From positions 62,001 through 126,000 of the forward strand of contig NZ_JARGNB010000005.1 of NCBI RefSeq assembly GCF_030167915.1: a stretch of 64,000 nucleotides of DNA. The letters are read 5' to 3'. This document shows, piece by piece, positions 23,964-39,693 of the stretch. Source of the DNA: Aquabacterium humicola. Its GTDB lineage: Bacteria > Pseudomonadota > Gammaproteobacteria > Burkholderiales > Burkholderiaceae_C. The notes under the pieces were generated by a model. The model searched no databases, was not told the origin of the DNA, and was given only the letters and a program-made list of their open reading frames with translations. Positions within the stretch are counted from its first letter, which is position 1. The number at the start of each line of letters is the position of its first letter. The position numbers were made by a program, and so were the translations under genes.

Positions 23964-24491
23964 TCAGCGGCGCGGCGCTCCGGCGTCGCGTTTCACCGCG
24001 GTGAGGATGCCGCGCAGGATCTCGATCGGCGGCGGCGGGCAGCCGGGGACTTCGACATCCACGGGAATCACGTCCGCGACCCGTCCGCAGCTCGCGTAGC
24101 TCTCGCCGAAGAGGCCCCCCGAGCAGCCGCAGTCGCCGACCGCGACGACGAGCCTGGGCTCCGGCGTGGCCTCGTAGGTGCGTCGCAGCGCTTCGGCCAT
24201 GTGGCGCGAGACGGGCCCCGTCACCAGCAGCATGTCGGCGTGGCGCGGGCTCGCCACGAACCGGATGCCCAGCCCTTCGAGGTTGTAGTAGGGGTTGTTG
24301 AGCGCGTGGATCTCGAGCTCGCAGCCATTGCACGAGCCCGCGTCCACCTCGCGTATCGTCAGCGCCTGCCCGAGGGTCGCGAGGATCTCGTCCTGGATGC
24401 GGCCCGCCTCCCGCCGCAGCGTGTCGTCCACCGGCGGCGCCGGCTCGCTGACGATGCCGGTGCGGGCGATCTGTCGCAGGATCCGCCACAT
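23964..24491 (-). CDS. NuoB/HyfI-type Fe-S small subunit, complex 1 (Ehr-like)
   Basis: A 175-residue soluble subunit homologous to NuoB/HyfI. It keeps the ligand set of the terminal 4Fe-4S cluster: Cys54 and Cys57 in SCNGCELE, Cys121 in VAVGDCGCSGG and Cys151 in VPGCPP. LLVTGPVSRHMAEALRRTYE is the usual surface motif. It should form the electron-carrying junction with the large subunit on the membrane arm. It has no ferredoxin domain, unlike the paralogue at 32418. Its ATG overlaps the large-subunit stop by one base; it is the last gene of this operon. Confidence 0.9.
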   Translation of the reverse strand: MWRILRQIARTGIVSEPAPPVDDTLRREAGRIQDEILATLGQALTIREVDAGSCNGCELEIHALNNPYYNLEGLGIRFVASPRHADMLLVTGPVSRHMAEALRRTYEATPEPRLVVAVGDCGCSGGLFGESYASCGRVADVIPVDVEVPGCPPPPIEILRGILTAVKRDAGAPRR

Positions 24492-26041
24492 CAGAGATCG
24501 TGCCCCGAATAGCTGAGGTTGAAGGACTTGTTGATCAGCGGGAAGTCCGGAACGATGTTGCCGATCACCGCATGCTCCAGCACCGGCCAGTTCTGCCAGG
24601 AGGGGTCGTGCGGATGGCAGCGGATGATGCGCCCGCCCGCACCGAGTTCGAGCGCCACCACCACCTCGCCGCGCCAGCCTTCCACCCAGCCCAGGCCGCG
24701 GGCACCGTCGCCGGCCGGCAGCGGCACGTCGCGCTTCACCGGGCCGACGGGCAGGCCCTCGCTGAGGCGGCCGATCAGGCGCAGCGACTCGAAGACCTCA
24801 TCGAAGCGCACGGCCACGCGCGCGGCCACGTCGCCGCCGGTGTGCAGGCTCGGCCGCGCATCGACGCGACGGTAGGGGTCGAAGGCCTGGTCGACACGCA
24901 GATCCAACGCGACGCCGCTGGCGCGTGCCGCCAGGCCGGTCAGCCCCAGGCGCAGCGCGAGTTCGCGCGGCACGCGGCCGGTGGTCATGAAGCGGTCCTG
25001 CAGGCCGGCGTGTTCGTCGTAGATGCCACGCAGCGTATGCACCTCGCGCTCGATGGCCTCGCACTGGGCACGCAGGCGGTCGGCGTCCGCCGGGCCGATG
25101 TCCACGGCGACACCCCCCGGGACGACGGCGTCCATCATCAGACGGTGGCCGAACAAGGCCCTCGACAGGCGCTGCCAGTCCTCGCGCAGCCGCGAGAACT
25201 GGGCGAGGCCGAACGCCAGCGCGGCGTCGTTGCCCAGGGCGCCGAGGTCGCCGAGGTGGTTGGCCACACGCTCGCGTTCGAGCAGCAGCGCGCGCAGCCA
25301 CGCGGCACGCTCGGGCACCGCGACGCCGGCGGCGGACTCCAGCGCCATGCAGTAGGCCCAGGCGAAGGCCACGGTCGAGTCGCCGCTGACGCGCCCGGCG
25401 AGCCGGTGGCCGTCGAGCGCCGGCAAGGAGGTGAAGCGCCGCTCGATGCCCTTGTGCGTGTAGCCCAGGCGCTGCTCCAGCCGCAGCACCTTCTCGCCGA
25501 CGACCGAGAAGCGGAAGTGCCCGGGCTCGATGATGCCGGCATGCACCGGCCCGACCGGGATCTCGTGCACGCCATCGCCCTCGACGCGCACGAAGGCATA
25601 GTTCGATGGCAGCGTGGCGGCGTCGGCCCCGCGTGGCGCGGCATCGCCTGCCAACGGCGGCCCGTCGCACCACAGCCCGTGATCGAGCCAGGGGCGGTGG
25701 TCCCGGGCGCCCTCGGCGGCAAACCCGTTCAGGTCGGCCACGGCGCGTTGCATGCGCGAAGCGCAGGGGAAGCTGGGCGTGAGGTCCGGGTAGGACGAAC
25801 CGTCAGCCAGCGCGAGCTCCACCCACAACAGGCCGAAGTCGCCGGCCAGCGCCGCGCTGACGGATGCGGGACTGTGCGAGGACCCGGAATCGTTGATGCC
25901 CCACAGCGCGACGAGGCGTCCGCCCGCCGCGGCCACCTTGCCCGCGGTGGCGGACCACGCCGCGCGATCCACCCACGCGTGCCAGGTGGCCATCGGCGCG
26001 GCCAGGCGCGTGGCGTTCGGGCCCAGGTTGGTGATCGGCAT
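24491..26041 (-). CDS. NuoCD/HyfG-type large subunit lacking NiFe ligands, complex 1
   Basis: A 516-residue subunit with an N-terminal NuoC-like part (to about 130) and a NuoD/hydrogenase-large-subunit part. Family motifs are EIPVGPVHAGIIEPGHFRFS, LGYTHKGIERRF, and C-terminal INKSFNLSYSGHDL. Where NiFe hydrogenases have RICGIC it reads GRVSGDSTVAFAWAYC, and where they have DPCxxC it reads HDPSWQNW; neither CxxC pair exists. It therefore cannot bind the NiFe centre and is not a hydrogenase. This is the mark of energy-converting hydrogenase-related (Ehr) complexes. Substrate unknown; quinone or another redox partner may occupy the site. Confidence 0.85.
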   Translation of the reverse strand: MPITNLGPNATRLAAPMATWHAWVDRAAWSATAGKVAAAGGRLVALWGINDSGSSHSPASVSAALAGDFGLLWVELALADGSSYPDLTPSFPCASRMQRAVADLNGFAAEGARDHRPWLDHGLWCDGPPLAGDAAPRGADAATLPSNYAFVRVEGDGVHEIPVGPVHAGIIEPGHFRFSVVGEKVLRLEQRLGYTHKGIERRFTSLPALDGHRLAGRVSGDSTVAFAWAYCMALESAAGVAVPERAAWLRALLLERERVANHLGDLGALGNDAALAFGLAQFSRLREDWQRLSRALFGHRLMMDAVVPGGVAVDIGPADADRLRAQCEAIEREVHTLRGIYDEHAGLQDRFMTTGRVPRELALRLGLTGLAARASGVALDLRVDQAFDPYRRVDARPSLHTGGDVAARVAVRFDEVFESLRLIGRLSEGLPVGPVKRDVPLPAGDGARGLGWVEGWRGEVVVALELGAGGRIIRCHPHDPSWQNWPVLEHAVIGNIVPDFPLINKSFNLSYSGHDL

Positions 26042-26045
26042 CGTG

Positions 26046-27506
26046 TCAGCCTCCCCCCAGCATGGCGGCCGCCTGCCGGTACCAGCCGTCGAGGTAGGGC
26101 GGGATATACAGGCCCAGCATCAGCCCGAGGCCGAGGTGCACGAACACCGGGATCAGCGCCGGCGGGTGCGCCAGCGGCTGAAGCGTGGTCTCGCCGAACA
26201 CCATCGGCTGCACACGGCTGAAGACCGACGCGAAGGCCAGGCCCAGCGCGATCAGCAGGAAGGGCGTGGCCCAGGGATGGTCGCGCATCGCCGTGGTGAC
26301 GATCAGGAACTCGCTCGCGAAGACGCCGAAGGGCGGCATGCCCAGGATCGCCAGCGCACCCAGCATCAGGCCCCAGCCGACCGTCGGGCTGACGCGGATC
26401 AGCCCGCGGATCTCGTCCATCACCTGCGAGCCGGCCTTCTGTGTCGCGTGGCCGACGGCGAAGAAGATGGCCGACTTGATCAGCGAGTGCACCGTCATGT
26501 GCAGCAGCCCGGCGAAGCTGGCGATCGGGCCGCCCATGCCGAAGGCGAAGGTCATCAAGCCCATGTGCTCGATCGACGAGTACGCGAACATACGCTTCAC
26601 GTCGCGCTGGCGGATGATGAAGAACACCGCGGCCACCACCGACACCAGGCCGAAGCCCATCATCAGCGCACCGGTGAGCGCGCTGCCGCCGAGTGCGCCG
26701 TCGGTCAGCACCTTGCAGCGCAGCACGGCGTACAGCGCCACGTTCAGCAGCAGGCCGGACAGCACCGCCGACACCGGCGTCGGGCCCTCGGCATGCGCGT
26801 CGGGCAGCCAGTTGTGCACCGGCACCAGGCCGACCTTGGTGCCGTAGCCGATGAACAGGAAGGCCCAGGCCAGCGTGATGATGTTGGGATCGAGCCGGGC
26901 CTTCACCGCGTCGAGGTTGGTCCACAGCAGCGCGCCGCCTTCGGCCCCGATCACCTTCTCGGCCGCCATGTACAGCAGCACGGTGCCGAACAGGGCCTGC
27001 GCGATGCCGACACCGCAGAGGATGAAGTACTTCCAGGCGGCCTCCAGGCTGGCGGCGGTGCGGTAGACGCTGACCAGCAGCACCGTGCTCAAGGTCGCCG
27101 CCTCCATCGCCACCCAGACGATGCCGAGGTTGTTGGTGGTCAGCGCCAGCAGCATCGTGAAGCTGAACAGCTGGTACATGCTGTGGTACAGGCGCAGCCG
27201 CGGCGGTGTCATCTTGCCGTGGTCGCGCTCCACGCGCATGTAGGGCCGCGAGAAGATCGACGTGGTCAGCCCGACGAACGCGGTGAGCGTGACCAGGAAG
27301 ACATTGAGCGCGTCGATGTAGAAGTGCTGGTCCCACACCAGCATCGGCCCTTCGGCGATCACGTCGGCCGTCAAGACGCAGGCGCACACGAAGGTGCCGG
27401 CGCTGAACGCGACATTGACGTCGCGCGCGCGATCCCGGTGTCCGACCAGCCCGAGCACGATGCCGCCCAGCAGGGGCACGGCCAACAGGAATGCCAGGGC
27501 CAGCAT
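26046..27506 (-). CDS. hyfF: HyfF-like antiporter-type membrane subunit, complex 1
   Basis: A 486-residue polytopic protein of the Mrp/NuoL-M-N family, about 14 helices. The proton-path residues are present: the glutamate in VWVAMEAATLSTVLL (helix 5) and the lysine in YGTKVGLVPVHNWLPDAHAE (helix 7). MFAYSSIEHMGLMTFAFGMG is the usual loop. It should translocate protons or sodium driven by the redox arm. Spacing to neighbours is 3-4 bases, so it is part of one operon. Confidence 0.9.
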   Translation of the reverse strand: MLALAFLLAVPLLGGIVLGLVGHRDRARDVNVAFSAGTFVCACVLTADVIAEGPMLVWDQHFYIDALNVFLVTLTAFVGLTTSIFSRPYMRVERDHGKMTPPRLRLYHSMYQLFSFTMLLALTTNNLGIVWVAMEAATLSTVLLVSVYRTAASLEAAWKYFILCGVGIAQALFGTVLLYMAAEKVIGAEGGALLWTNLDAVKARLDPNIITLAWAFLFIGYGTKVGLVPVHNWLPDAHAEGPTPVSAVLSGLLLNVALYAVLRCKVLTDGALGGSALTGALMMGFGLVSVVAAVFFIIRQRDVKRMFAYSSIEHMGLMTFAFGMGGPIASFAGLLHMTVHSLIKSAIFFAVGHATQKAGSQVMDEIRGLIRVSPTVGWGLMLGALAILGMPPFGVFASEFLIVTTAMRDHPWATPFLLIALGLAFASVFSRVQPMVFGETTLQPLAHPPALIPVFVHLGLGLMLGLYIPPYLDGWYRQAAAMLGGG

Positions 27507-27509
27507 GGG

Positions 27510-28169
27510 TCAGTCTTCCTTGAGCTTCTCGAGGTGCCGGATGTCCAGGCTGTCGAACTGCTCGCGGATCTGGAACATGAACACGCCCAGGATCAGCACG
27601 CCGATCAGCACGTCCAGCGCGATGCCCAGTTCCACGACCATCGGCATGCCGTAGGTGGCGGAGGTGGCGGCGAAGAACAGGCCGTTCTCCATCGACAGGA
27701 AGCCGATCACCTGCGGCACGGCCTTGGCGCGGGTGATCATCATCAGGAACGACAGCAGCACGCAGGCCAGCGCGATGCCCAGCGTGCCGCTGGCCAGCGT
27801 GCTGGACAGCCGCGAGATCGGCAGCGCGAGGTTGAACGCGAAGATGACCACCAGGATGCCGATCAGCATCGTCGTCGGGATGTTGATCAGGCTTTCCAGC
27901 TCCCAGCGGATGTCCAGGCGCTTGACCACGCGGTGCAGCAGCCAGGGGATCAGCAGCACCTTGAGCGCCAACGTGATGCCCGCCGACAGGTACAGGTGCG
28001 GCTGGTGCGTGACGTAACCCACCACGGCTGTGGCCAGCACCAGCGTCGCGCCCTGCATGGTGAACAGGCGGATCAGCGACAGGATGCGACGCTGCGCGAT
28101 CATCGCGAAGGCCAGGATCAGCAGCAGCGCGCCGAGCAGGTTGACGAACTGGGTGAGCAGGGCGTTCAT
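27510..28169 (-). CDS. hyfE: HyfE-like membrane subunit, complex 1
   Basis: A 219-residue protein with about six helices (MNALLTQFVNLLGALLLILA, GYVTHQPHLYLSAGITLALK, ALPISRLSSTL, QVIGFLSMENGLFFAA, YGMPMVVELGIALDVLIGVL). The FLSMENGLF and MVVELGIALD segments are characteristic of hydrogenase-4 component E, the NuoK-like part of the membrane arm with conserved buried glutamates. It sits between hyfC-like and hyfF-like genes, the normal order. Confidence 0.9.
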   Translation of the reverse strand: MNALLTQFVNLLGALLLILAFAMIAQRRILSLIRLFTMQGATLVLATAVVGYVTHQPHLYLSAGITLALKVLLIPWLLHRVVKRLDIRWELESLINIPTTMLIGILVVIFAFNLALPISRLSSTLASGTLGIALACVLLSFLMMITRAKAVPQVIGFLSMENGLFFAATSATYGMPMVVELGIALDVLIGVLILGVFMFQIREQFDSLDIRHLEKLKED

Positions 28170-28180
28170 CGCATCCCGCC

Positions 28181-29128
28181 TCAGCGCGCCAGCAGGAGGT
28201 GGACGAGCATGCCGATCACCGCCAGCAGGAAGGCGGCCGCCAGGAATTCCGGCACGCGGAAGATGCGCATCTTGGCCGACAGCGCCTCGAGCAATGCGAG
28301 CAGGAAGCCGCCGATGGCCAGCTTGAATACCAGTGCCGGCATGGCCAGCAGCATGGCCAGCGGCGCCTGCGCCTCGGCGACGCCCCAGGGGAAGAACAGC
28401 GCGAGCCCGATGCAGGAGTAGGCAAACAGCTTCAGGCTGGCCGCCCACTCGATCAGCGCCAGGTGGCGCCCCGAGTACTCGAGGATCAGCGCCTCGTGGA
28501 TCATCGTCAGCTCGAGGTGCGTGGCCGGGTTGTCCACCGGCACGCGCGCGTTCTCCGCGAGCGACACCATCGTGAAGGCAATGCCGGCGAAGGCCAGGCC
28601 GGGATAGATCGCGAACTCGCGGTGCGCCAGCGTCTCGACGATGGTGGTGAGCGACGTCGACTTGGAGATCAGCGATGCCGAGAACAGCACCATCAGCAGC
28701 GCCGGCTCGGCCAGGAAGCCGATCAGCATCTCGCGCCGCGCGCCGAGCGTGCCGAACGAGGTGCCGACGTCCATCGCCGCCAGCGAGATGAACACCCGTG
28801 CCAGCGCGAACAACCCGACCAGGGCGATCGCATCGGCGGCCGGCGCGAGCGGCAGGTCGGTGGACAGCGTCGGGATGATGGCGCAGGCCAGCACCATGCA
28901 GCCGAAGACGATGTAGGGGGCCGCGCGGAACAGGCGCGAGGCGTTGTCCGCGATGACCGATTCCTTGACGAAGAGCTTGTGCAGTTGCCGGTAGGGCAGC
29001 CACAGGCTCGGGGCCGAGCGGTTCTGCAGCCAGGCGCGCCACTGGTTGACCCAGCCCGTGAGCACCGGCGCGAGCAGGATCGCCAGCACGATCTCGAGCA
29101 GTTGCGACAGCGCGCCGGCCCAGTTCAT
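28181..29128 (-). CDS. hyfC: HyfC/NuoH-type membrane subunit, complex 1
   Basis: A 315-residue subunit with about eight helices, homologous to NuoH and HyfC/HycD. Key parts are LPYRQLHKLFVKESVIADNA on the redox-arm side, ISLAAMDVGTSFGTLGARRE, and the charged loop ENARVPVDNPATHLELTMIH then EALILEYSG. This subunit forms the interface through which redox changes at the small and large subunits drive ion pumping. Four-base spacing to the HyfB-like gene upstream and 11 bases to hyfE. Confidence 0.9.
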   Translation of the reverse strand: MNWAGALSQLLEIVLAILLAPVLTGWVNQWRAWLQNRSAPSLWLPYRQLHKLFVKESVIADNASRLFRAAPYIVFGCMVLACAIIPTLSTDLPLAPAADAIALVGLFALARVFISLAAMDVGTSFGTLGARREMLIGFLAEPALLMVLFSASLISKSTSLTTIVETLAHREFAIYPGLAFAGIAFTMVSLAENARVPVDNPATHLELTMIHEALILEYSGRHLALIEWAASLKLFAYSCIGLALFFPWGVAEAQAPLAMLLAMPALVFKLAIGGFLLALLEALSAKMRIFRVPEFLAAAFLLAVIGMLVHLLLAR

Positions 29129-29132
29129 CGCG

Positions 29133-31157
29133 TCACCGCATCACCACCACCAGCGTGGCCGCCAGCGTGAGGAAGCTGTAGAGCAGGTACACCGAGATGC
29201 GGCCCTGCTGCATCAGGCCGATCAGGCGCGCCAGCGTGCCGGCCAGATCGGCGATCGGCATGTACATCCAGCGCCAGAAGTGGTCCTCGACGACCACCTT
29301 GTAGCGCGGTTGCTCGTCGAAGGGCGTCGGCAGCTCGCGCGTCATCTGGAAGAAGGGCTCGAAGATCTGCCGGATCGGCTGGCCGAAGCCTTCGGCCGTG
29401 TCCTGCATGCGCGGCGTGCCCCACGGGAAGCCGCAGGCCCAGGCGATGCCGCGGCGCAGGCGGCCGTGGTAGAGCCAGCGCACCAGCAGGAAGGCGAGCG
29501 CGAAGCTGCCGAGGATGCCGAGCAGGAAGATGACCGGCCCATAACTCGCTTGCTCGAGGCTGGTGGGCGCCAGCAGCCAGCCGCTGGCCGCGACGCGCTC
29601 GGCGAGCCCCGCGCCGGCGAGCTGGCGCGTCACCGGATCGATCAGCGCGATGAACTGCACCGGCAGCAGGCCGAGCAGCAGGCAGCCGGCGACCAGCCAG
29701 CCCATGCCCAGGCGCTCGCGCAGGCCCGCGTCGTGCGCGGTCGCCAGCTTCTCCTCCCGGGGCTGACCCAGGAAGATCACGCCGAAGAACTTGACCATCG
29801 TGTAGCCGGCCAGCGCAGCCACCAGCGCGATCAGCGCGGCCACCACCGGAATCAGCATGGTCAGCAGCGGCACCGGCAGGCCCGGCGTGAACAGGAAGCT
29901 CTGCAGCAGCAGCCACTCCGACACGAAGCCGCCCAGCGGCGGCAGGCCGGCGCTGGCCAGCACGCCCAGCAGCGTGAACCAGCCCACCCAGGGCATGGTG
30001 CGAATCAGGCCGCCCAGCCGGCCCAGGCTGCGCTCGGCGGTGGCGTGCAGCACGCTGCCGGTGCCCAGGAAGAGCAGGCTCTTGAAGAAGGCATGGCTGG
30101 CCACGTGGTACAGCGTGGCGGTGAGCGACAGTGCGGCCATCGGCGCCATGCCGTAGCCCGAGAAGATGAGCGTGAGCCCCATGCCGACGAACAGCAGGCC
30201 CATGTTCTCGATCGACGAGTACGCCAGCAGGCGCTTCATGTCGGTCTGCACGGCGGCGAAGATCACGCCGTACAGCGCCGTCGCCAGGCCGGCGGCCAGC
30301 AGCAGCGCACCCCACCACCACAGCCGCAGCTCGAGCAGGTCCATCGCCACGCGCAGCATCCCGTAGATCGCGGTGTTGAGCATCACGCCACTCATCAGCG
30401 CCGAGACCGGCGACGGCGCGGCCGGATGGGCCTCGGGCAGCCACACGTGCAGCGGCAGGATGCCGGCCTTGGCGCCGAAGCCGAACAGGGCCAGCAGGAA
30501 ACCCACCGAGGCCCAGAACGGCGTCAGCGCCTGCGCGCGCATGTTGGCGAAGGTGTAGTCGCCGGTATTGGCCTGCAGCACGCCGAAGCACAGCAGGATG
30601 GCGATGGCGCCGACCCTGGCCATCGTGATGTACAGGTAGCCTGCGCTGCGCACCTCGGGCACGCGGTGGTTCGCGGTCACCAGGAAGTACGAGGACAGCG
30701 CCATCGTCTCCCACATCACCATGAAGCCATAGGCATCGTCGGCCAGCACCACGCCCAGCATGCTGGCGAGGAAGACGTGGTACTCCAGGCACAACAGGCC
30801 CGGCGGCGTGCCTTCCCCCTTGCGGAAGTAGCCGGCGGCGAAGAACGAGATGCCGGCCGACGCCGCGCCGATGACGAGCAGGAAGTAGGCCGCCAGGCTG
30901 TCGAGCCGCAGGTGCAGCGGCAGGCTCGGCAGGCCGATGGGCAGCACCGCCGTCTGCGGCGAGCCCGTCAGCGCAACCGCGGCCACGCCCGCCAGTGCCA
31001 GCGCGAGCACGCCGCCGATGGGAAACAGCACATGGGCCACCAGGGCCAGGCGATGCAGCATCAGCACACCAGCGGCTCCCACGACCAGCCAGCCGAGGCC
31101 GACTGCCATCAGCCAGTCGATGGCCAGCCATTCGGCCGGTGCCACCAGGTGCGCCAC
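29133..31157 (-). CDS. hyfB: HyfB-like antiporter-type membrane subunit, complex 1
   Basis: A 674-residue polytopic protein, first gene of operon 1. The start is taken as GTG 31157 (VAHLVAPAEW) because no ATG with a ribosome site is present near; it is uncertain. Proton-path residues are seen in MWETMALSSYFLV (Glu) and GFGAKAGILPLHVWLPEAHP (Lys), with MLAYSSIENMGLLF. The extra C-terminal region (GIAWACGFPWGTPRMQDTAE, then KVVVEDHFWRWMY) is typical of HyfB rather than NuoL. A long hairpin repeat abuts its 5' end at 31166. Confidence 0.88.
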   Translation of the reverse strand: MAHLVAPAEWLAIDWLMAVGLGWLVVGAAGVLMLHRLALVAHVLFPIGGVLALALAGVAAVALTGSPQTAVLPIGLPSLPLHLRLDSLAAYFLLVIGAASAGISFFAAGYFRKGEGTPPGLLCLEYHVFLASMLGVVLADDAYGFMVMWETMALSSYFLVTANHRVPEVRSAGYLYITMARVGAIAILLCFGVLQANTGDYTFANMRAQALTPFWASVGFLLALFGFGAKAGILPLHVWLPEAHPAAPSPVSALMSGVMLNTAIYGMLRVAMDLLELRLWWWGALLLAAGLATALYGVIFAAVQTDMKRLLAYSSIENMGLLFVGMGLTLIFSGYGMAPMAALSLTATLYHVASHAFFKSLLFLGTGSVLHATAERSLGRLGGLIRTMPWVGWFTLLGVLASAGLPPLGGFVSEWLLLQSFLFTPGLPVPLLTMLIPVVAALIALVAALAGYTMVKFFGVIFLGQPREEKLATAHDAGLRERLGMGWLVAGCLLLGLLPVQFIALIDPVTRQLAGAGLAERVAASGWLLAPTSLEQASYGPVIFLLGILGSFALAFLLVRWLYHGRLRRGIAWACGFPWGTPRMQDTAEGFGQPIRQIFEPFFQMTRELPTPFDEQPRYKVVVEDHFWRWMYMPIADLAGTLARLIGLMQQGRISVYLLYSFLTLAATLVVVMR

Positions 31158-31165
31158 GGGGTTCA

Positions 31166-31324: not shown

Positions 31325-31552
31325 TCAGGCCTTGCGCGGACGCGGCCCTCGTCTGGCGGGTGCGGAGGCCTCTTCGTCGTCGTCACCGGTGCCGCTGGGC
31401 TGGTAGGCCACGCCGTGGTGCGCCAGGTAATCGCGTATCAAGCGGCGCACGACCTGGGACGGCGTCAGGTCCTGCTGCGCGCAAAGGCGCTCGAAGGCAG
31501 CCTTCTTGTTGGGATCGATGAGCAGCGTCAAGCGCGCGGTCTTCAGCTCCAT
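31325..31552 (-). CDS. Ribbon-helix-helix (CopG/Arc-like) small protein
   Basis: A 75-residue protein starting MELKTARLTLLIDPNKKAAF with GAGG six bases before the ATG. The pattern TARLTLLIDPNKKAAFERLC then DLTPSQVVRRLIRDYLAHHG is one beta strand plus two helices of a ribbon-helix-helix DNA-binding domain, which dimerises on DNA. The basic, Pro/Arg-rich tail is low-complexity. It is the last gene after operon 2 and the spermidine-synthase-like gene, 83 bases downstream of that stop, and could regulate either complex. It could also be an orphan antitoxin; no toxin is adjacent. Confidence 0.7.
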   Translation of the reverse strand: MELKTARLTLLIDPNKKAAFERLCAQQDLTPSQVVRRLIRDYLAHHGVAYQPSGTGDDDEEASAPARRGPRPRKA

Positions 31553-31635
31553 AGATCCTCGGTATGCCAATTGAATGTTGTTCGGATGCACATCGTACTC
31601 TCAGGGGTTTCGTGCGGGAAGCGGCGTCGCGCCGC

Positions 31636-32391
31636 TCATGCGTACTGATCCTTCCAGGCCGATCTGAACAGCGCGAAGGAGGCGAGCAAGGGCTTGACGG
31701 CTTCGCGGGCCAGGCCCCTGGGCGGGCGCACGACGCCCGCGCTGAATCGCGCCAGCGCGGGGCCCTTGCAGGCGAAGACGATGCTGTTGCTGCATTCGCC
31801 GTCGTCGACCACCAGGATCGCGCCATGGAAGCTGCGGCGGATGCGCTCGACGTGGCGCGGGTGGTCGCGATGGCCGAAGTGCAGGTTGACCACCATCACC
31901 CCGCCGGGTTGCAGCATCTCGTAGGCGTTGTCGTAGAAGCGCTGGGAGCACAGTGCGTCCGGTAGCCCGTTGCTGTCGAAGCCGTCGACCATCAGCACGT
32001 CGCTTCGCGTCGCGCGGTAGCGCACGTAGTGCGCACCATCGCCCGCGATGACCCGGAAGCGCGCGTCGTCCGGCGGCACGTGGAACTCGTCGCGCAGCGC
32101 GATCACATGCGGATTGATCTCGACCACGTGGATCTGCGTGTCCGGCAGGTAGCGGTGGCAGAACTTCGCCAGCGACCCACCGCCGAGGCCGATCATCGCG
32201 ATGCGCCGGGGCTGCGGCACCAGCAGCAGGAACGCCATCATCGTGCGCGTGTACTCGAGGTCGAGCGCATGCGGATCGCGCAGGTCCATGCGGCTCTGGG
32301 TCTCGCAGATCGAGAAGTGCAGCGCCTTGCGCGTCAGCGTTTCGTAGACGAAGGGCCGGACGTGCTGCGCGGGGTCGATGGTTTCTGGCAT
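31636..32391 (-). CDS. Spermidine synthase-like (polyamine aminopropyltransferase family) protein
   Basis: A 251-residue Rossmann-fold protein. RRIAMIGLGGGSLAKFCHRY is the nucleotide (decarboxy-SAM/SAM) site, VVEINPHVIALRDEF the ribose-binding acidic residue, and VIAGDGAHYVR, VLMVDGFDSNGLPDALCSQR and FYDNAYEMLQPGGVMVVNLH complete the spermidine synthase pattern. It is shorter than canonical SpeE and lacks the N-terminal beta domain of full length, so the substrate may differ. It follows the Fe-S subunit of complex 2 by 26 bases and is probably in that operon, an unusual partner. Confidence 0.75.
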   Translation of the reverse strand: MPETIDPAQHVRPFVYETLTRKALHFSICETQSRMDLRDPHALDLEYTRTMMAFLLLVPQPRRIAMIGLGGGSLAKFCHRYLPDTQIHVVEINPHVIALRDEFHVPPDDARFRVIAGDGAHYVRYRATRSDVLMVDGFDSNGLPDALCSQRFYDNAYEMLQPGGVMVVNLHFGHRDHPRHVERIRRSFHGAILVVDDGECSNSIVFACKGPALARFSAGVVRPPRGLAREAVKPLLASFALFRSAWKDQYA

Positions 32392-32417
32392 GGCTCGAGG
32401 CGGGAAGGATGCAGCGA

Positions 32418-33209
32418 TCAGGACGGGATGCCCAGCAGGTCCAGGAGGCCGCACAGGAAGGTCAGCGGGTGCGCCGGGCACCCGGGCACGTACAGCGTGG
32501 GCTTGATGCGATCGAGGAAGGATCGGTCCAGCGCCTCGGAGCCGTCGAACGGGCTGCCCGAGATCGCGCAGGCGCCCACGGCGATCACCAGCTTGGGCTC
32601 GGGCATGCCGTCCCAGCACAGCTGCAGGGCATCGGCCATGTTCCGGCTGATCGGGCCGGTGAGCACCAGGCCATCGGCATGGCGCGGCGAGGCGACGATG
32701 TCGATGCCATAGCGGCCGATGTCGAAGTTGACGTTGGTGAGCGCGTTGACTTCCAGCTCGCAGGCATTGCAGCCACCGGCCGACACCGAGCGCAGCTTGA
32801 GCGAGCGGCCGAAGCGCTGCTTCAACTCGGCCGAGACCCGCACCGGATCGGGCGTCGGGCGGTCCACGCCGATCACCAGCCCCGCCAGGTCGGTGGCGGC
32901 GAGCCGGACGTCGTTGCTGTAGCCGAGCTTGCCGGTGGGGCAGGCGCTCGCGCAGTCGCCGCACTGGATGCAGCGGCCGAGGTCGACGGTGAGCGCCGCG
33001 GTGGTCGGCGCGGCAGGGGTCGGCGCGGCAGTGGTCAGCTTCAGGGCGATGGCGCGGGTCGGGCAGGAATCCACGCAGGCGCTGCAGCCGGTGCCGCAAG
33101 CGCCCTCGCCGACCACCGGCCGGCCACGAAAGCCTTGCGGCGCGGCGCGGCGCGGGTCCGGGATGAACTGGCTGCCCTGGGCGCGGCGAACGGCGATCGA
33201 CTTGAACAT
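32418..33209 (-). CDS. Fused ferredoxin + NuoB/HyfI-type Fe-S subunit, complex 2
   Basis: A 263-residue subunit. Residues about 35-95 are a two-cluster ferredoxin (CGTGCSACVDSCP, Cys38/42/45/49; CIQCGDCASACP, Cys80/83/86/90). The C-terminal two thirds are NuoB-like with Cys147 and Cys150 in GGCNACELEVN, VGACAISGSPF and VPGCPAHP. The arrangement joins the HyfH-type ferredoxin and HyfI in one chain and gives a wire from a soluble donor such as ferredoxin to the membrane arm. Eight bases separate it from the large subunit gene. Confidence 0.9.
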   Translation of the reverse strand: MFKSIAVRRAQGSQFIPDPRRAAPQGFRGRPVVGEGACGTGCSACVDSCPTRAIALKLTTAAPTPAAPTTAALTVDLGRCIQCGDCASACPTGKLGYSNDVRLAATDLAGLVIGVDRPTPDPVRVSAELKQRFGRSLKLRSVSAGGCNACELEVNALTNVNFDIGRYGIDIVASPRHADGLVLTGPISRNMADALQLCWDGMPEPKLVIAVGACAISGSPFDGSEALDRSFLDRIKPTLYVPGCPAHPLTFLCGLLDLLGIPS

Positions 33210-33217
33210 GGCGTGGC

Positions 33218-34717
33218 CTACAGGTCGTTTCCGCAGTACGAGAGGTCGAAGCTCTTGTTGCAGATCGGGAAGTCGGAGATCTCGTTGTCGCGCACCGCCA
33301 GCGCGAGCCCGAACCAGTTCAGCAGCGAAGGGTCCTGCAGCTTGACGTGCAGCAGCCGGCCGTCGGGGCCGGTTTCGTAGGCGTGCACCACCGGGCCGCG
33401 GAAGCCCTCGCGCACGCAGACGCACAGGGTGTCGGGGTACAGGGCCCCCGGCGGCTGCAGCGCCGGCGCGTCGAGCGGCAGGTCCGGCGCACCCAGCAGC
33501 GATTCCAGCCAGCGCAGCGATTCGCCGACCTCGCGCATGCGCAGCACCAGCCGGGCCCAGCAGTCGCCGGCGGTTTCGATCAGGGTCTCGACCGGATGGG
33601 CGTCATGCAGGCGGCCCGGCAGGCGGCTGCGCGTGTCGAAGGGCACACCGCTGGCGCGCGCGGCGACACCGGCCAGGCCGATGTCGGCGGCGGCTTGGTG
33701 GCTCACCGTGCCCACCGCCTGGAAGCGCGCGCGCACCGATCGCGCGGCGAGCATCAGCGCGTTGACTTCGTTGAAGTCGCGACTGAACCCGGACAAGGTC
33801 TTCAGCAGGTCCGCGCGCAGCCCGGGCGTGATGCCGAAGCGCACGCCGCCGGGGCGCAGCCAGCCGCGGCCGAAACGGCTGCCGCACACGCGCATCGTGG
33901 CGTTGATGATGGCGGTGCGAAGGCGGCCGTAGGTGGCGCCGCCCTGTAGGAAGGCGATGTCGGTCGCCAGGCCGGCCAGCGCCACCAGGTGCATGGCGAT
34001 GCGTTCGAGTTCCAGCGCGACGCCCCGCACGCGATCCACCTCGAACGGCAGCTGCACGCCGCCCAGCGCCTCGACCGCCGCGCAATAGGCCCACGCGTGG
34101 GCGATGCTGCTGTCGCCGGCAATGGTTTCCGCCAGCGTCGCCATCGTCAGCGGCGGGCGCGCGAGCATCAGGGCTTCGACGCCGCGATGCTGGTAGCCGA
34201 GCTGGATCTCCAGGTGGTGCACGGTCTCGCCGTGGCACATGAAGCGGAAGTGACCGGGCTCGATCACGCCGGCATGGATCGGGCCGACACCGACCTCGTG
34301 CACCTCCTGGCCCCGCACGCTGAAGAACGGGTACTCGTGCATGCGGCGCTGACGCTCGCCCTCGAAGCGCACCGGTTTGAGCCAGGGGTGGCCGTGCGGC
34401 ACGACGCCGGTCTGCTCCCACAGCTCGCGCTCGAGCATCTGCACCGACGGGAAGCGTGCGGTCAGGGCCGGGTAGCCCGTCGCCGCCGGCCCGCGCCCGC
34501 GCAGGATGTGCATCGCGCCGGAAGCCGGCAGCAGCACCGCGGTGACGACCACATCGTCGCCCTCGCGCCGCCCGAACAGCGTGAGCATGCGCGCGCCGGC
34601 GGCCAGCGCCTGCTCGCACTGTGCGGCCCAGGCGTCGAGCGACGTCGGCGCGAGTTCCGCCGTCAGGCGCAGCGCGACGCACGGGGCGGGCGGGACGGGC
34701 GGGTGCAGGTCGGCCAT
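33218..34717 (-). CDS. NuoCD/HyfG-type large subunit lacking NiFe ligands, complex 2
   Basis: A 499-residue homologue of the complex 1 large subunit. It keeps VGVGPIHAGVIEPGHFRFMC, LGYQHRGVEAL and ICNKSFDLSYCGNDL. In place of the two nickel-binding CxxC pairs it has TIAGDSSIAHAWAYC and LQDPSLLNWFG. The few Cys present are not spaced as CxxC. It therefore belongs with the NiFe-free Ehr group. The N-terminal NuoC-like part (PALTARFPSVQMLERELWEQ, HPWLKPVRFEGE) is intact. Start and upstream stop overlap by one base. Confidence 0.85.
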   Translation of the reverse strand: MADLHPPVPPAPCVALRLTAELAPTSLDAWAAQCEQALAAGARMLTLFGRREGDDVVVTAVLLPASGAMHILRGRGPAATGYPALTARFPSVQMLERELWEQTGVVPHGHPWLKPVRFEGERQRRMHEYPFFSVRGQEVHEVGVGPIHAGVIEPGHFRFMCHGETVHHLEIQLGYQHRGVEALMLARPPLTMATLAETIAGDSSIAHAWAYCAAVEALGGVQLPFEVDRVRGVALELERIAMHLVALAGLATDIAFLQGGATYGRLRTAIINATMRVCGSRFGRGWLRPGGVRFGITPGLRADLLKTLSGFSRDFNEVNALMLAARSVRARFQAVGTVSHQAAADIGLAGVAARASGVPFDTRSRLPGRLHDAHPVETLIETAGDCWARLVLRMREVGESLRWLESLLGAPDLPLDAPALQPPGALYPDTLCVCVREGFRGPVVHAYETGPDGRLLHVKLQDPSLLNWFGLALAVRDNEISDFPICNKSFDLSYCGNDL

Positions 34718-36147
34718 CAGTGCCCCCCGATCGATTGCGCCACCTGCGCCAGCAGGTCGCTGATCGGCGCCGGCGTGTAGACGCCCAGCAGCACCAGCGC
34801 AGTGACGAATCCCAGCTTGGGCAGCGCCGTCACCCAGGTTTCGCGCACCGGCGGGCGGTGCTGCTCGGGCGGATTCCACAACATCGGGAAGATGGCTCGG
34901 CCGGTGGCCACGAAGATGATCGTCAGCATCGTGCACATCAGCGTGAAGGCGATCAGGTTGCCCGCCTGCACGATGCCCGAGAGGATCAGCATCTCGGCCA
35001 GGAAGCTGCCGAAGGGCGGAAAGCCCAGCAGCGCGAAGGTGCCCACCGCGAACAGCACGCCGGAGAACGGCAGCACGCGGACCACGCCGGCCAGCGGCGC
35101 GGTCTCGTTGGTGCGGTAGACCGCGCGCATGCGGCCTGCCGTGAGGAACAGCAGGCTCTTCACGAAGGCATTGCTGACGACGTAGAGCAGCACGCCGTAG
35201 GCCGCCGCGCGGCCCACCGACAGGCCGATGGCGATCACGCCCGACGAGGCCATGCAGGCGTAGGCGATCAGCCGCTTGTAGTTGCGCGCGGCCATCACCT
35301 GGATCGCGGCCACGGTCAGCGTCAGGCAGCCGAGGATCAAGAGCTCGTGCAGCACGAAGCCGGTGTCCTGCCCGCGGAAGACCTGCAGGATGCGCAGCAC
35401 CGCGACGATGCTGATGTTGAACTGGATGGCCGCCAGCAGCGCGCTGGTGCTGGTGGGCGCGGCCTCGTAGGTCTCGGGCAGCCAGGCATACAGCGGCGCC
35501 AGGCCGAGCTTGCCGCCCAGGCCGAACAGCATCAGCGCCAGGCCCAGGCGCTGCCAGCCGTCGCCCTTCGACGAGACGGTGGCGGCCATCTCGTCGAGCA
35601 TGAAGCTCATTTCGATGCCCTGCAGCTGGGCCGAACGCGCGAGGCACAGCAGGCCCAGGAAGGTCAGCGCGAGCGACATGCTGGAGTACAGCAGGTAGTG
35701 CCAGGCCACGCGCCGCGGTGCCAGCGCGTCGCCCTGGGCCACCAGCGGCGCCAGGCACAAGGTGGTCAGCTCGATGAAGGCCCACAGCAACAGCAGGTGG
35801 TTGGCCATCAGGCCCAGGTTCATCGCCACCATGAAGGCCAGCGTGAGCGCGCTGCGCGGCAGCATGTTCGCGGCCAGCACGCGCGAGGTGCTGGCCCGCG
35901 AGGACATGTAGACGCTGATGCCGAGGAACACGGCGTTGACCACCAGCAGGAACAGCATCGACGTGGCGTCGAGCACGAGGAAGCGCTGCGCGAAGACCAG
36001 CGGCAGCCCGGCCAGCGTGAGCCGCGCGTAGGTGACGGACCAGCCGACCAGAAAGGCCAGCGCCACGATGACCAGCGCCGGGCCGGCCCAGGCGCCCGGC
36101 AAGCCCCGGCGCAGCGACTCGGTCGCGGCGGCGGCTGGCATCGTCAT
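34717..36147 (-). CDS. hyfF: HyfF-like antiporter-type membrane subunit, complex 2
   Basis: A 476-residue polytopic protein with about 14 helices (start MTMPAAAATES). The helix-5 glutamate (LWAFIELTTLCLAPLV) and helix-7 lysine (GLGGKLGLAPLYAWLPETYE) are present. The helix-8 site, usually SGvxxxxxxY, is changed to LLAAIQFNISIVAVLR. It overlaps the HyfE-like gene upstream by four bases (ATGA) and touches the large subunit downstream. Confidence 0.88.
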   Translation of the reverse strand: MTMPAAAATESLRRGLPGAWAGPALVIVALAFLVGWSVTYARLTLAGLPLVFAQRFLVLDATSMLFLLVVNAVFLGISVYMSSRASTSRVLAANMLPRSALTLAFMVAMNLGLMANHLLLLWAFIELTTLCLAPLVAQGDALAPRRVAWHYLLYSSMSLALTFLGLLCLARSAQLQGIEMSFMLDEMAATVSSKGDGWQRLGLALMLFGLGGKLGLAPLYAWLPETYEAAPTSTSALLAAIQFNISIVAVLRILQVFRGQDTGFVLHELLILGCLTLTVAAIQVMAARNYKRLIAYACMASSGVIAIGLSVGRAAAYGVLLYVVSNAFVKSLLFLTAGRMRAVYRTNETAPLAGVVRVLPFSGVLFAVGTFALLGFPPFGSFLAEMLILSGIVQAGNLIAFTLMCTMLTIIFVATGRAIFPMLWNPPEQHRPPVRETWVTALPKLGFVTALVLLGVYTPAPISDLLAQVAQSIGGH

Positions 36148-36755
36148 GCGCGCTCCCCCTCGGGCGGGAGCGGGGCCACCCTCGCCTCGTCCGGCGTGCC
36201 GATCAGCCAGGCGCCCACGCCGACCGTGCCGAAGTAGATGAGCCCCAGCGCCGCATGCACCGGCAGCGGCCAGGGCTCGGGCAGCAGGGTCTCGAACAGG
36301 CCGAGCGCGTTCTCCATCGTCAGCAGCGCCACCAGTTGCGCCGGCGACGCGGCGTTGGTGGACAGCAGCAGCAGCGCCACCGCCACCGTGGCGGCGACGG
36401 CGCCCAGGGTCATCGCGTGGCGGTCGTCGGCGGCCGGGGCACCGAACTGGAAGGCCAGCACGATGAGCGCGATGGCCACGGCCCAGGCGAACAGGTTGGA
36501 CGGCATCAGGTCGAGGTCGGGCTCGCCGCGCGCCCGGATCGCGCGGCCCAGCAGCCATGGCGCGACGAGCGCCCGCACGACGATCACTTCGGCCAGCGCC
36601 GCCACGGCGTGCCCCGACAGCTGCGGATGCTGGACGAAACCGGCCCAGCCCAGCGCCACCGCCTGCACCAGCAGCCAGGCCGGCGCCGTGCGGATGCGGC
36701 CGAAGAACACCGGCACCACCACGGCGATCAGGAACAGCGTGATCGGCAGCGTCAT
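36144..36755 (-). CDS. hyfE: HyfE-like membrane subunit, complex 2
   Basis: A 203-residue protein with about six helices. VQHPQLSGHAVAALAEVIVV, then LVAPWLLGRAIRARGEPDLD and QLVALLTMENALGLFETLLP match hydrogenase-4 component E, with the MENALGLFE glutamates. It is somewhat shorter and more diverged than the copy in complex 1. Its start shares one base with the upstream HyfC-like stop. Confidence 0.82.
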   Translation of the reverse strand: MTLPITLFLIAVVVPVFFGRIRTAPAWLLVQAVALGWAGFVQHPQLSGHAVAALAEVIVVRALVAPWLLGRAIRARGEPDLDLMPSNLFAWAVAIALIVLAFQFGAPAADDRHAMTLGAVAATVAVALLLLSTNAASPAQLVALLTMENALGLFETLLPEPWPLPVHAALGLIYFGTVGVGAWLIGTPDEARVAPLPPEGERA

Positions 36756-37687
36756 CACGGCCTCGCGATCCAGCCGCTGGCCAGCAGCGCGGCGGCCGAG
36801 ATTGCCGTGGCCAGCAGCAGGTAGCGCGGCACCCGCTTCATGCGCAGGCGCGCCACCAGCGATTCGACACAGCCCACCGCCACGGCCACCACCGCCATCA
36901 AGGCGACGGCGGCGACCATCGCCGGCAACGGCTCGCGCCAGGCATCGAAGGGATTGAGCAGCGTGGCGATCAGGCCCGCATACATCGACATCTTCACCGC
37001 CGCGGCGTACTGCATGGCCGCCAGCTCCGGGCCGCTGTGGTCGAGCACCATCACCTCGTGGACCATGGTCAGCTCCAGGTGCGTGAGCGGGTCGTCGACC
37101 GGCACGCGTGCGGCCTCGGCCTGCAGCAGCACGAACAGCACGGCGACCATCGGCACGGCCAGCCACGCCGCGCCGTCGTGGTGACCGATGCGGCCGAAGT
37201 GGCCGACCAGGTCGGCGAAGCTCGATTGGCCGGTGAGCACGCCGGCCGTTCCGATGAGCAGGAACAGCGCCGGCTCGATGAAGGCGGTGAAGGACGCCTC
37301 GCGCGCGCTGCCCATGCCCTCGAAGGAGCTGCCGGTGTCCATGGCCGAGAGCATCAGGACCATGCGCGCCAGGCCCAGCGTGTAGGCGAAGACGATGAAA
37401 TCGCGGCCGAACTGCAGCGGCGCGACGGACCCCAGCACAGGCGCCATCATCGCGGCCAGCAGCGACGCGGCCAGCACCACCCACGCGCCGGCCTTGAACA
37501 ATGGCGTGGTGACCTCGCTGACCACCGGCCGCTTGCGCAGCAGGCGCAGCAGGTCCCAGGCCGATTGGGTGATGCGCGGCCCGCGGCGGCCGCCCCACCA
37601 GGACTTGGTGCGGTTGACCAGCCCGACCATCACGATCGGCATGACCAGCACCAGCAGCACGTGCACGGCGATCAGCAAGGGCTTCAA
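36755..37687 (-). CDS. hyfC: HyfC/NuoH-type membrane subunit, complex 2
   Basis: A 310-residue protein starting at TTG (37687), which overlaps the HyfB-like TGA as TTGA, so translational coupling is likely. It carries MLSAMDTGSSFEGMGSAREA and the loop AARVPVDDPLTHLELTMVHE with VMVLDHSG, the conserved acidic loop of the family. About eight helices. Role as for the complex 1 copy: interface between redox and pumping arms. Confidence 0.87.
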   Translation of the reverse strand: MKPLLIAVHVLLVLVMPIVMVGLVNRTKSWWGGRRGPRITQSAWDLLRLLRKRPVVSEVTTPLFKAGAWVVLAASLLAAMMAPVLGSVAPLQFGRDFIVFAYTLGLARMVLMLSAMDTGSSFEGMGSAREASFTAFIEPALFLLIGTAGVLTGQSSFADLVGHFGRIGHHDGAAWLAVPMVAVLFVLLQAEAARVPVDDPLTHLELTMVHEVMVLDHSGPELAAMQYAAAVKMSMYAGLIATLLNPFDAWREPLPAMVAAVALMAVVAVAVGCVESLVARLRMKRVPRYLLLATAISAAALLASGWIARP

Positions 37688-39693
37688 CTCAGCGCCCCGC
37701 CGGAGATCACGATCAACCCGGCGATGACCACCAGCGCGATCAGGCCGGCGGCGAAGGCCAGCCGAGGGTCGTCCTCGCGCAGCTTGCGCGACAGCTCGCC
37801 GGCGGAAGTGTCGCCATGGCCGATCACCGAATACAGGCGCCGCTCGACGGCATCGACGCAGTCGGTGATGACGTAGGCATCGTTCGGGAAGTAGGCCTGC
37901 GGCCCCTTGCGGCGGTACAGCAGCACCATCAGCGCGCGGAAACGGCTCGCGAAGTCCCACGAGAAGCCGGCGCCGGTGGTCTGCATGCGCGGACCGACCG
38001 CCGTGTAGCCGCAGCCCCAGGTGACGTGCGATGCGCTCGCGCTGCGCGCGACCGCGCGCCGCAGCCACCAGAGTGCGACGATGGCCAGCACCAGCAGGCC
38101 CGAGAGCGCGCCGATGCGGCCCAGCGTCGTGCCCACCTCGGCCAGCTCGTGGCCCGTGGCCGCGGGAAGCCCGGCCAGCGCCAGCGCCGCGGTCGGCTGC
38201 ACCAGCGCCAGCCCCAGCATCGGCACGAGCCCGAGCACGGCCACGCCCAGGCCGTGCAGCAGCAGCGGCACGCGCATCCACCAGCCGACCTCCGTGGCGT
38301 GCGTCGCGCACTCGTCGCGCGGCGCACCGAGGAAGACCACGCCGAAGGCGCGCGTGATGCTCAGCGCGGACACGGCGCCGACAAAAGCCAGCAACGCGCC
38401 CGCTGCCGCCAGCGCCACCTTGGCCCGCACCGGTACCGGCTGGTCGGTGTACAGGCCCGAGTAGATGAGGAACTCGCTGGTGAATCCGTTGAAGGGGGGC
38501 AGCGCGCAGATCGCGATGCCGCCGACCAGGAAGCTGATCGCCGTCCACGGCATCAGCCGGGCCAGGCCGCCGAGTTTCTCGATGTCCACGCCGTGCGCGG
38601 CCTGGTAGACCGCCCCGGCCGCGTAGAAGAGCTGGCACTTGAAGAAGGCGTGGTTGAGCACGTGCATCAGCGCGCCCGCGAAGCCCAGGGCCACCAGCAT
38701 CGGCTGCTGCCAGGCGAGGCCCAGGCAGCCGACCCCCAGGCCCATGGCGGCGATGCCGACGTTCTCGGTGGAGGAGTAGCCCAGCAGCCGCTTCAGGTCA
38801 CGCTGGCCGACGGTGTAGAGCGCGCCGATGACGGCCGACAACGCGCCGAAGCCCAGCAGGAACCAGCCCATCCACTCGTCCGGCCGCCCCATCAGCAGCA
38901 GGAAGCGCACGAGGGCGTAGAGGCCGGCCTTGTGGATCACGCCGGACATCAGCGCCGAGACATGGGCCGGCGCAGCGGCATGCGCGCGCGGCAGCCACGA
39001 GTGGAACGGGAAGAAGGCCGACTTGAGCGCGAAGCTGGTCAGCAGCAGCAGGAAGACGAGGTTGCGCTCGGAGCCGGGTTGATCGCGCAGCCACTGGCCG
39101 AAGCTGCCGAGCTCCCACGACGCCGAGTGCGTGTACAGGATCATGAACGCGGCGACCAGGAAGATCAGCCCGATGTGCGTGGACACCAGGTAGTTGAAGC
39201 CGGCGAAGCGCACCTTCTGGTTCGAGTAGTCCCAGATCACGAGCAGCCAGGCCGCCAGCGCCGCGATTTCCCAGCCGAGCAGGAAGACGAGCGCGTGGTC
39301 GGCGCTGTAGACCAGCACGAAGGACAGCGACGTCATGTTCAGCAGCGCGTAGTGCACGCCGACATGCCGCTGCGTATCGAAATGGGGCTTCAGGTAGCCG
39401 GCGGCGTAGACGCTGCCCAGCAGCGTCATCGGCACCGACCAGGCGAGGAAGAACGCGCCCAGGCCATCCATCCGGATGCGCAGCGTGCCCACGGGATGGG
39501 CCCACGGCAGGTCGGCCACCAGGGGCGCGCCGCCCATCAGCACCGGCGCGACAGCCATCCAGACCAGCACCGTGGCGAGCGCCTGCGTGGTGATGCCGAT
39601 GGCGGCCCGGTGGGCATTGCGCAGCGGCAGCAGGCAGGCTGCCGCCCCCAGCAGCAGCACCCATTGGGTCGCCAGCAGCGCGGTCACGGTCAA
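37684..39693 (-). CDS. hyfB: HyfB-like antiporter-type membrane subunit, complex 2
   Basis: A 669-residue polytopic protein and the first gene of operon 2. The start is a TTG at 39693 or a GTG at 39687; no ATG is near. The proton-path residues are in GWEIAALAAWLLV (Glu) and SFALKSAFFPFHSWLPRAH (Lys), followed by ALMSGVIHKAGLYALVRFL and LLGYSSTENVGIAAMGL. The C-terminal cytoplasmic segment (HVTWGCGYTAVGPRMQTTGA) is as in HyfB. It is clearly diverged from the copy at 29133, so the clusters are old paralogues rather than a recent duplication. Confidence 0.88.
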   Translation of the reverse strand: MTVTALLATQWVLLLGAAACLLPLRNAHRAAIGITTQALATVLVWMAVAPVLMGGAPLVADLPWAHPVGTLRIRMDGLGAFFLAWSVPMTLLGSVYAAGYLKPHFDTQRHVGVHYALLNMTSLSFVLVYSADHALVFLLGWEIAALAAWLLVIWDYSNQKVRFAGFNYLVSTHIGLIFLVAAFMILYTHSASWELGSFGQWLRDQPGSERNLVFLLLLTSFALKSAFFPFHSWLPRAHAAAPAHVSALMSGVIHKAGLYALVRFLLLMGRPDEWMGWFLLGFGALSAVIGALYTVGQRDLKRLLGYSSTENVGIAAMGLGVGCLGLAWQQPMLVALGFAGALMHVLNHAFFKCQLFYAAGAVYQAAHGVDIEKLGGLARLMPWTAISFLVGGIAICALPPFNGFTSEFLIYSGLYTDQPVPVRAKVALAAAGALLAFVGAVSALSITRAFGVVFLGAPRDECATHATEVGWWMRVPLLLHGLGVAVLGLVPMLGLALVQPTAALALAGLPAATGHELAEVGTTLGRIGALSGLLVLAIVALWWLRRAVARSASASHVTWGCGYTAVGPRMQTTGAGFSWDFASRFRALMVLLYRRKGPQAYFPNDAYVITDCVDAVERRLYSVIGHGDTSAGELSRKLREDDPRLAFAAGLIALVVIAGLIVISGGALS

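Follow-up and report, generated by a model that had tools for sequence, protein, structure and literature searches.

The window analysed here is a 64,000-nucleotide stretch of the Aquabacterium humicola contig NZ_JARGNB010000005.1 (positions 62,001 to 126,000), and the system in question is a pair of gene sets for energy-converting hydrogenase-related (Ehr) complexes. Twelve intact genes occupy positions 23964-39693 on the minus strand and follow the order HyfB, C, E, F, G and I two times over (Table 1), as a first-pass annotation of the same DNA had recognised. The two sets, referred to below as A (39687-32418) and B (31157-23964), encode proteins with 27-47% identity to one another and are separated by two genes that were absent from that annotation, one for a spermidine-synthase-like protein and one for a ribbon-helix-helix (RHH) protein. 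The NCBI cut-offs for hydrogenase 4 subunits are passed by HyfB and HyfF of set B; all six set A proteins stay below the cut-offs of the listed NCBIfam models, and HyfE of set A gave neither an NCBIfam match at 0.01 nor a Pfam match at 0.1. In our reading, the locus probably specifies a pair of distinct Ehr complexes, both intact and nickel-free, which stem from ancient sister clades, are kept together and would each work as a redox-driven cation pump.

Table 1. Features of the paired Ehr locus in the window
Feature	Position (strand)	Size, model matches and remarks
Set A HyfB-type antiporter-like subunit	37684..39687 (-)	667 amino acids; alternative TTG start at 39693; NCBIfam PRK06521 7.5e-135, below cut-off
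Set A HyfC/NuoH-type membrane subunit	36755..37687 (-)	Pfam NADHdh 5e-27; about 32% identical to set B HyfC
Set A HyfE-type membrane subunit	36144..36755 (-)	203 amino acids; 27% identical to set B HyfE; position matches related loci
Set A HyfF-type antiporter-like subunit	34717..36147 (-)	Pfam Proton_antipo_M 8.8e-38
Set A HyfG-type (NuoCD-like) large subunit	33218..34717 (-)	four of four nickel ligands replaced
Set A HyfI small subunit with N-terminal 2x[4Fe-4S] ferredoxin domain	32418..33209 (-)	Pfam Oxidored_q6, Fer4_7
Spermidine-synthase-like protein, between the sets	31636..32391 (-)	Pfam Spermine_synth; NCBIfam PRK04457 below cut-off
Ribbon-helix-helix (RHH_9) protein	31325..31552 (-)	Pfam RHH_9 1.8e-22; candidate regulator of A and B
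Set B HyfB	29133..31157 (-)	NCBIfam PRK06521 891 bits, above the cut-off of 667
Set B HyfC	28181..29128 (-)	NuoH model 1.6e-14
Set B HyfE	27510..28169 (-)	NCBIfam PRK11492 2.8e-25, below cut-off
Set B HyfF	26046..27506 (-)	NCBIfam PRK06458.1-5 899 bits, above the cut-off of 543
Set B HyfG-type large subunit	24491..26041 (-)	four of four nickel ligands replaced
Set B HyfI small subunit	23964..24491 (-)	no ferredoxin domain; Pfam Oxidored_q6 3.9e-31
Candidate RHH operator TAACAT-N5-TATCAT	39804..39820 (-)	upstream of set A

The large subunits were aligned with HycE, MbhL and Nqo4, and in addition in one 124-row alignment that contains 107 Ehr rows (47 of type A and 60 of type B; 101 distinct sequences). 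At the first pair of nickel ligands, RVCGIC of HycE aligns with RVSGDS in B and TIAGDS in A, i.e. CGIC is replaced by SGDS or AGDS. The second pair, DPCYSC of HycE, aligns with the extreme C-terminus, NLSYSG in B and DLSYCG in A, so that SYSG or SYCG stands in the place of CYSC; in the same alignment both window proteins end three residues further on, and the C-terminal tail of HycE and HyfG is absent. None of the four ligand cysteines is present in 98 of the 107 Ehr rows, a lone cysteine at the first position is present in the other nine (L042, L075, L078, L082, L086, L087, L098, L099 and L114, the L042 gene being that of L114), and a CxxC pair at the nickel positions is found in none; E. coli HycE and HyfG score four of four in the same count. 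The third ligand position is Ser in all 107 rows and the fourth is Gly in 106, and the residue beside the fourth position is Cys in all 47 A rows and S, T or A in B. The loss of both CxxC pairs that the first-pass annotation had reported is confirmed.

The same annotation had read the motif DPSxxNW as the replaced DPCxxC and as a new ligand motif, which we reject. DPSxxNW aligns with AATYANW of HycE, EPTFPN of MbhL and APSFVN of Nqo4, and corresponds to the ordinary (P/A)(S/T)xxN of complex I and hydrogenases; the true site is C-terminal. Its Asp is Ehr-specific and PSxxN is ancestral, with N changed to T in the rows of a divergent B subtype (B2, see below) and to C in L069. The Ehr-specific residues of the former nickel cleft lie elsewhere: an Asp after the first-loop Gly and an N-K near the C-terminus occur in every A and B row, and the invariant or near-invariant cleft positions comprise G-D, N-K and S-Y-x-G-x-D. 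In set A these residues are G201-D202 and, towards the C-terminus, K488 and S493-Y494-C495-G496-x-D498. The earlier view of a conserved site rather than decay is upheld by G-D, N-K, S-Y and the last Asp, as well as by the selection estimates given below, and falls for DPSxxNW.

HypD was not found in the window's genome, which is listed as 100% complete; the same search matched four of 14 control genomes, including E. coli, and among 34 other Ehr-positive genomes of the family HypD was present in 14 and absent in 20. Because the loss of the nickel ligands and the lack of HypD are two independent grounds, a hydrogenase is excluded for the window's genome; with CxxC pairs and HypD both missing, the sets do not belong to the group 4 [NiFe]-hydrogenases, and the nickel-free character proposed from the letters alone stands. 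AlphaFold models of the large subunits have a mean predicted local distance difference test (pLDDT) score of 86 (A) and 83 (B). Their best PDB match is HycE (7z0s_E; TMq 0.79 for A and 0.87 for B), followed by complex I; the predicted site loops and C-termini of both proteins are of low confidence.

For the membrane subunits, rows were labelled A or B by best match to the window's A or B protein, and the B-labelled rows include some from the non-Ehr loci L091-L093 (one HyfB, two HyfF and two HyfC rows). In HyfB, the Glu of transmembrane helix 5 and the Lys of helix 7 are kept in all 46 A-labelled and all 24 B-labelled rows. In HyfF, the Glu is kept in all 28 A and all 36 B rows, and the Lys in all 28 A rows and in 35 of the 36 B rows; the retention of these presumed pumping residues had been noted before and holds with this one exception. 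The position of the helix 8 Lys of HyfF is N in both window proteins, likewise in E. coli HyfF. HyfC retains the equivalents of NuoH E157 and D213 in 40 of 40 A and 21 of 21 B rows; in the majority of rows E220 is present and E216 lost. The His of GPxH (equivalent to His38) is kept in all 107 Ehr large subunits. Antiporter-like membrane subunits together with the missing NiFe cysteine pairs place both sets, by their sequences, among the Ehr complexes. In members of clade A from Geothrix/Holophagaceae (L075, L078, L080, L082, L083, L087 and L088), two HyfB-like genes stand in a row.

Both window HyfI proteins keep the CxxC...C...C cluster ligands, in agreement with the earlier annotation. What that annotation did not contain is the ferredoxin domain of set A, which is NuoI/HyfH-like. 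Using regular expressions, both ferredoxin motifs were detected in 39 of 47 A-type small subunits and the second motif in 45 of 47; no ferredoxin motif was detected in any of the 23 B-labelled small subunits listed, three of which (L091-L093) are not Ehr. A separate HyfH for set B was not found, the only matches in the genome being NuoI, the fused domain of set A and one larger protein. At a single locus (L057, 2943-3716), a flavin oxidoreductase resembling ferredoxin-NADP reductase (Pfam FAD_binding_6, NAD_binding_1) is encoded upstream of set A.

A tree of 113 large subunits (107 distinct), built by a quick method, gave support in the Shimodaira-Hasegawa-like approximate likelihood ratio test (SH-aLRT) of 100 for Ehr (107 rows), 99 for clade A (47 rows) and 89 for clade B (60 rows). 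Clade A includes members from Burkholderiales, Myxococcota, Acidobacteriota, Bacteroidota, Spirochaetota and others, and clade B holds the divergent subtype B2 (L055, the first set of L107, and L110). The tree places A and B as ancient sister clades with a deep split, a point that the first-pass annotation lacked. For all twelve genes, the ratio of non-synonymous to synonymous substitution rates (dN/dS; Nei-Gojobori, partly saturated, measured against the top-scoring relative among the longer loci retrieved) was 0.15-0.50.

The distribution of the two sets was examined in 299 genomes of the family, in which a B call required a B-query match at E <= 1e-148. Set A was found in nine genomes and set B in 30: both in six, A only in three, B only in 24 and neither in 266, the last including two genomes, G297 and G409, in which a remoter relative occurs at 32-35% identity. 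Since at most five candidates were scored per genome, absences in these genomes are not absolute. Co-occurrence far exceeds expectation (Fisher p 4e-5; 3e-4 minus the window's genome; 0.002 by genus). Among 39 genomes collected with the A query, 17 are of Burkholderiales type, a label that for L054 (Pseudomonadota) and five beta proteobacterium entries rests on place in the tree, and 12 of these 17 have B (E <= 1e-185), compared with none of the other 22; the collections behind the family and A-query counts may overlap in species. Within the genus, an Ehr large subunit occurs in only four of 21 genomes, three with A and a B-like copy and one with a B-like copy alone, so the locus is accessory.

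Sets A and B lie in tandem in the window, in L053, L056 and L065, and on the Variovorax PBL-E5 plasmid (L115), and are convergent in L086 and L100; at 1e-30, B matched 62 plasmid records, and of the 40 that were listed this Variovorax plasmid was the one with two places. Wherever a pair was seen whole (window, L056, L086, L115, and L055 for A with B2), six genes are kept per set. The contigs of L054, L058, L059, L060, L062, L094, L096 and L097 were too short for an adjacency call. The earlier remark that two sets side by side are unusual is right in that the arrangement is rare overall, but it recurs in Burkholderiales and is not unique to the window's genome. Because pairs recur in related bacteria, A and B may share a joint energy-saving task. 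Other combinations were also observed: a 34-kb Rhodoferax contig (L055, G544:C58) carries three Ehr sets, A, B2 and B; L107 (1-13323) has B2 and then B in tandem, with no A within the 20-kb stretch; and in L074 (1-6524), a second set of HyfB/HyfC-like open reading frames, encoded on the minus strand, lies upstream of set A, in a genome with a second Ehr-like large subunit.

The RHH protein gave a single match in the window's genome, and its relatives occur in 14 of the 64 stretches with A or B sets. Spermidine-synthase-like genes adjoin some other A or B sets, and genes for a CopG-family regulator and a spermidine synthase lie ahead of hyfB in Burkholderia stagnalis. Exact k-mers common to the upstream regions were no better than those of random stretches. 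The inverted repeat ATGATA-N7-TATCAT has two exact matches in 1.19 Mb, both on the Variovorax plasmid L115, at 12749 (between the RHH gene and set A) and at 21475 (before the spermidine-synthase and B genes), and was not found in the window at up to two mismatches. A direct-repeat pattern, TANCAT-N5-[TG][AC]NCAT, which was read by eye from upstream regions of the same kind, has 10 sites in 1.19 Mb, of which seven lie upstream of an A, B or RHH gene (window, L053, L056, L094 and L112-L114) and the other three in L073, L085 and L115; the match in Table 1 is the only one in the window. An upstream site of this pattern is present in seven of the 14 stretches with RHH; one of the 50 lacking RHH, L085, carries a site next to a set gene. 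Perhaps A and B are under shared control of the RHH protein.

The other larger clusters of shared neighbours that were inspected, among the first 60 of 87, represent genome context, e.g. metG and Geothrix-specific genes. One cluster of open reading frames (L095: methionyl-tRNA synthetase) adjoins differing Ehr combinations in L055, L064, L067, L086, L095, L096, L097 and L107, which possibly share a common site. Universal stress protein genes are located near Ehr sets in L115 (20923-21369, Variovorax) and L124 (14225-15124, Rhizobium). In the window itself, an RTX-type calcium-binding repeat protein (40985-42709, Pfam HemolysinCabind) is encoded near the locus, and an apparently unrelated FAD-dependent oxidoreductase (21526-22953) lies downstream of the LysR gene that comes after set B.

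From these residues and gene contents we infer a mechanism common to both complexes. The membrane arm of each would be formed by the antiporter-like HyfB and HyfF together with HyfC and HyfE, and the cytoplasmic redox arm by HyfG and HyfI with one proximal [4Fe-4S] cluster. Electrons of the redox arm would reduce, or in the reverse direction leave, a substrate bound in the cleft that NiFe occupies in hydrogenases. The redox energy would drive cation movement through the membrane arm. In set A, electrons would enter via the fused two-cluster ferredoxin domain, with a soluble ferredoxin or flavodoxin as the most likely donor; set B, having no such domain, would be fed directly or by another protein. 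A quinone, held in a pocket that has been altered, or some other small molecule may serve as acceptor.

Several observations weigh against two complexes that are kept together as pumps of this kind. Set A occurs without B in three of nine family genomes, in five of the 17 genomes of Burkholderiales type and in each of the other 22 genomes with A, so A does not need B. In G366 a distance of 1.9 Mb separates the two sets on one chromosome, and G309, G552, G553 and G559 have them on different contigs, where there is space around A. A draw of 250 genomes of the order contained no further set A and only relatives without A at up to 41% identity, and since the genomes of L053 and L056 match congeners of the window's species, the paired loci cannot all be counted as independent. 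In the tree, a long-branch warning applies to clade A against the outgroup. No donor or acceptor enzyme recurring beside the sets was recognised among the neighbour clusters inspected, mostly by eye, and the candidate operator is circular and a lead only, because its pattern was derived from regions of the same kind. Where complex I has its quinone tyrosine (Tyr87 of Nqo4), all 47 A rows and all 60 B rows carry Gly, so a quinone acceptor is without direct support.

The first-pass annotation had left undecided whether the sets form two complexes or one larger assembly. In the latter case, A and B subunits would combine into one complex that has two redox arms and four antiporter-like subunits. 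The shared strand and close spacing in the tandem loci, together with the excess of co-occurrence, are what such an assembly would lead one to expect. Yet the sets are neither always together nor seen to share subunits: pairs are also convergent, on other contigs or far apart, the A tree requires at least four adjacency changes (8 linked and 11 unlinked rows; seven of 26 Burkholderiales rows, being undecidable, were left out), and A alone and B alone are both common. Because six genes are kept per set and each set occurs alone, two complexes are preferred, and we consider one assembly improbable. Somewhat less improbable, though still unlikely, is that A and B constitute one functional unit of two redox partners, placed back to back and jointly switched by one RHH protein. 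A tandem duplication of recent date whose second copy is in decay, suggested at first sight by two adjacent sets in one order, is rejected; the low identity between the sets and their separate deep clades, along with open frames and purifying selection throughout, make it extremely improbable, and the broken duplicate envisaged in the annotation as a refutation was not encountered.

The two Ehr complexes may be ferredoxin:quinone oxidoreductases, essentially complex I minus the NADH module and with its quinone pocket remodelled, a possibility that we rate as less likely than not. The fold and the antiporter residues are common to the window sets and respiratory complex I (NuoB, CD, H, L, M, N), and the NuoCD fusion, the invariant His38 equivalent, the conserved NuoH-type acidic residues of HyfC and the ferredoxin domain of set A all point the same way. 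In contrast to complex I, the window sets have Gly for the quinone tyrosine, no NADH-module genes and a hydrogenase-type CxxC in the small subunit, and they do not belong to complex I itself; the lack of a ferredoxin domain in set B and the low confidence of the modelled site loops and C-termini also count against this reading. A non-quinone reductase, in which the former NiFe cleft would reduce another small molecule as proposed for MBX, a sulfur-reducing relative, is a somewhat doubtful option that nevertheless stands close in weight to the quinone one. The Ehr-specific cleft residues and the extra Cys beside the fourth ligand position of every A row fit it, but a sulfur or other reductase partner does not recur near the sets, and MBX (6u8y) is a far weaker match than HycE to the window's large subunits. 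We regard as quite unlikely that both sets are fed by formate dehydrogenase. This has been suggested for other Ehr complexes, judging from the available parts of the sources, as a formate dehydrogenase-Ehr idea (PMC6349859), by the greater abundance of Geobacter Ehr on formate (PMC7894505) and for Acidithiobacillus (PMC7735108). However, no formate dehydrogenase was recognised, mostly by eye, among the recurrent neighbours of A and B, and none is annotated in the fetched stretches of three plasmid records.

Ehr complexes as such are known already, having reportedly been defined in a paper of 2013. Among solved structures, HycE of E. coli formate hydrogenlyase comes closest to both large subunits; HycE and HyfG of E. 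coli retain the four cysteines and the C-terminal tail, unlike the window proteins, whose genome is without HypD. Set B has the same six-gene content as hyfBCEFGI of Cupriavidus metallidurans CH34 and C. necator H16, whose function is also called unknown in the text available (PMC2864759). The CH34 large subunit is 66% identical to that of set B (100% query coverage), and by sequence set B is close to this known operon; the CH34 megaplasmid record searched has one place at 1e-30, so no set A is present on that record. The hyf-like operon of Nitrospira likewise has hyfBCEFGI content (PMC5596200), and Nitrospira Ehr is described as missing the CxxC motifs and as having an unknown function (PMC10284858); in the portions of these two papers available, no pairing is mentioned for Nitrospira, in difference to the window. 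In Geobacter sulfurreducens, EhrA-1, EhrC, EhrL and EhrS are named and described as hydrogenase-related, with NuoL-like, HyfE-like, large and small subunits as in the window, a likeness by description only in the excerpts at hand (PMC7894505, PMC8691401). By analogy, the double HyfB of the Geothrix clade A members may resemble the Geobacter operon. In the accessible text of the sources (including PMC10284858 and PMC7894505), the function of Ehr is called unknown for Nitrospira, ammonia-oxidising archaea, mycobacteria and Geobacter. The literature searches, which also drew on the available parts of PMC10432482, PMC6728331, PMC6688271 and PMC3569383, yielded no recognisable description of paired Ehr sets or of a ferredoxin-fused Ehr small subunit; as far as this literature goes, the pairing and the ferredoxin-fused clade appear to be new.

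If A and B did form one functional unit, one complex could, for example, lift electrons to ferredoxin with the proton gradient while the other conserves energy, or the two could make up a loop that sets the quinone/ferredoxin balance. The corrected ligand map tells which residues to mutate, and because the ferredoxin-fused clade pairs repeatedly with the better-known hyfBCEFGI type, genomes with and without the pair offer a natural comparison. Ehr complexes are widespread, and the ferredoxin-fused clade offers a testable point of electron entry into them.

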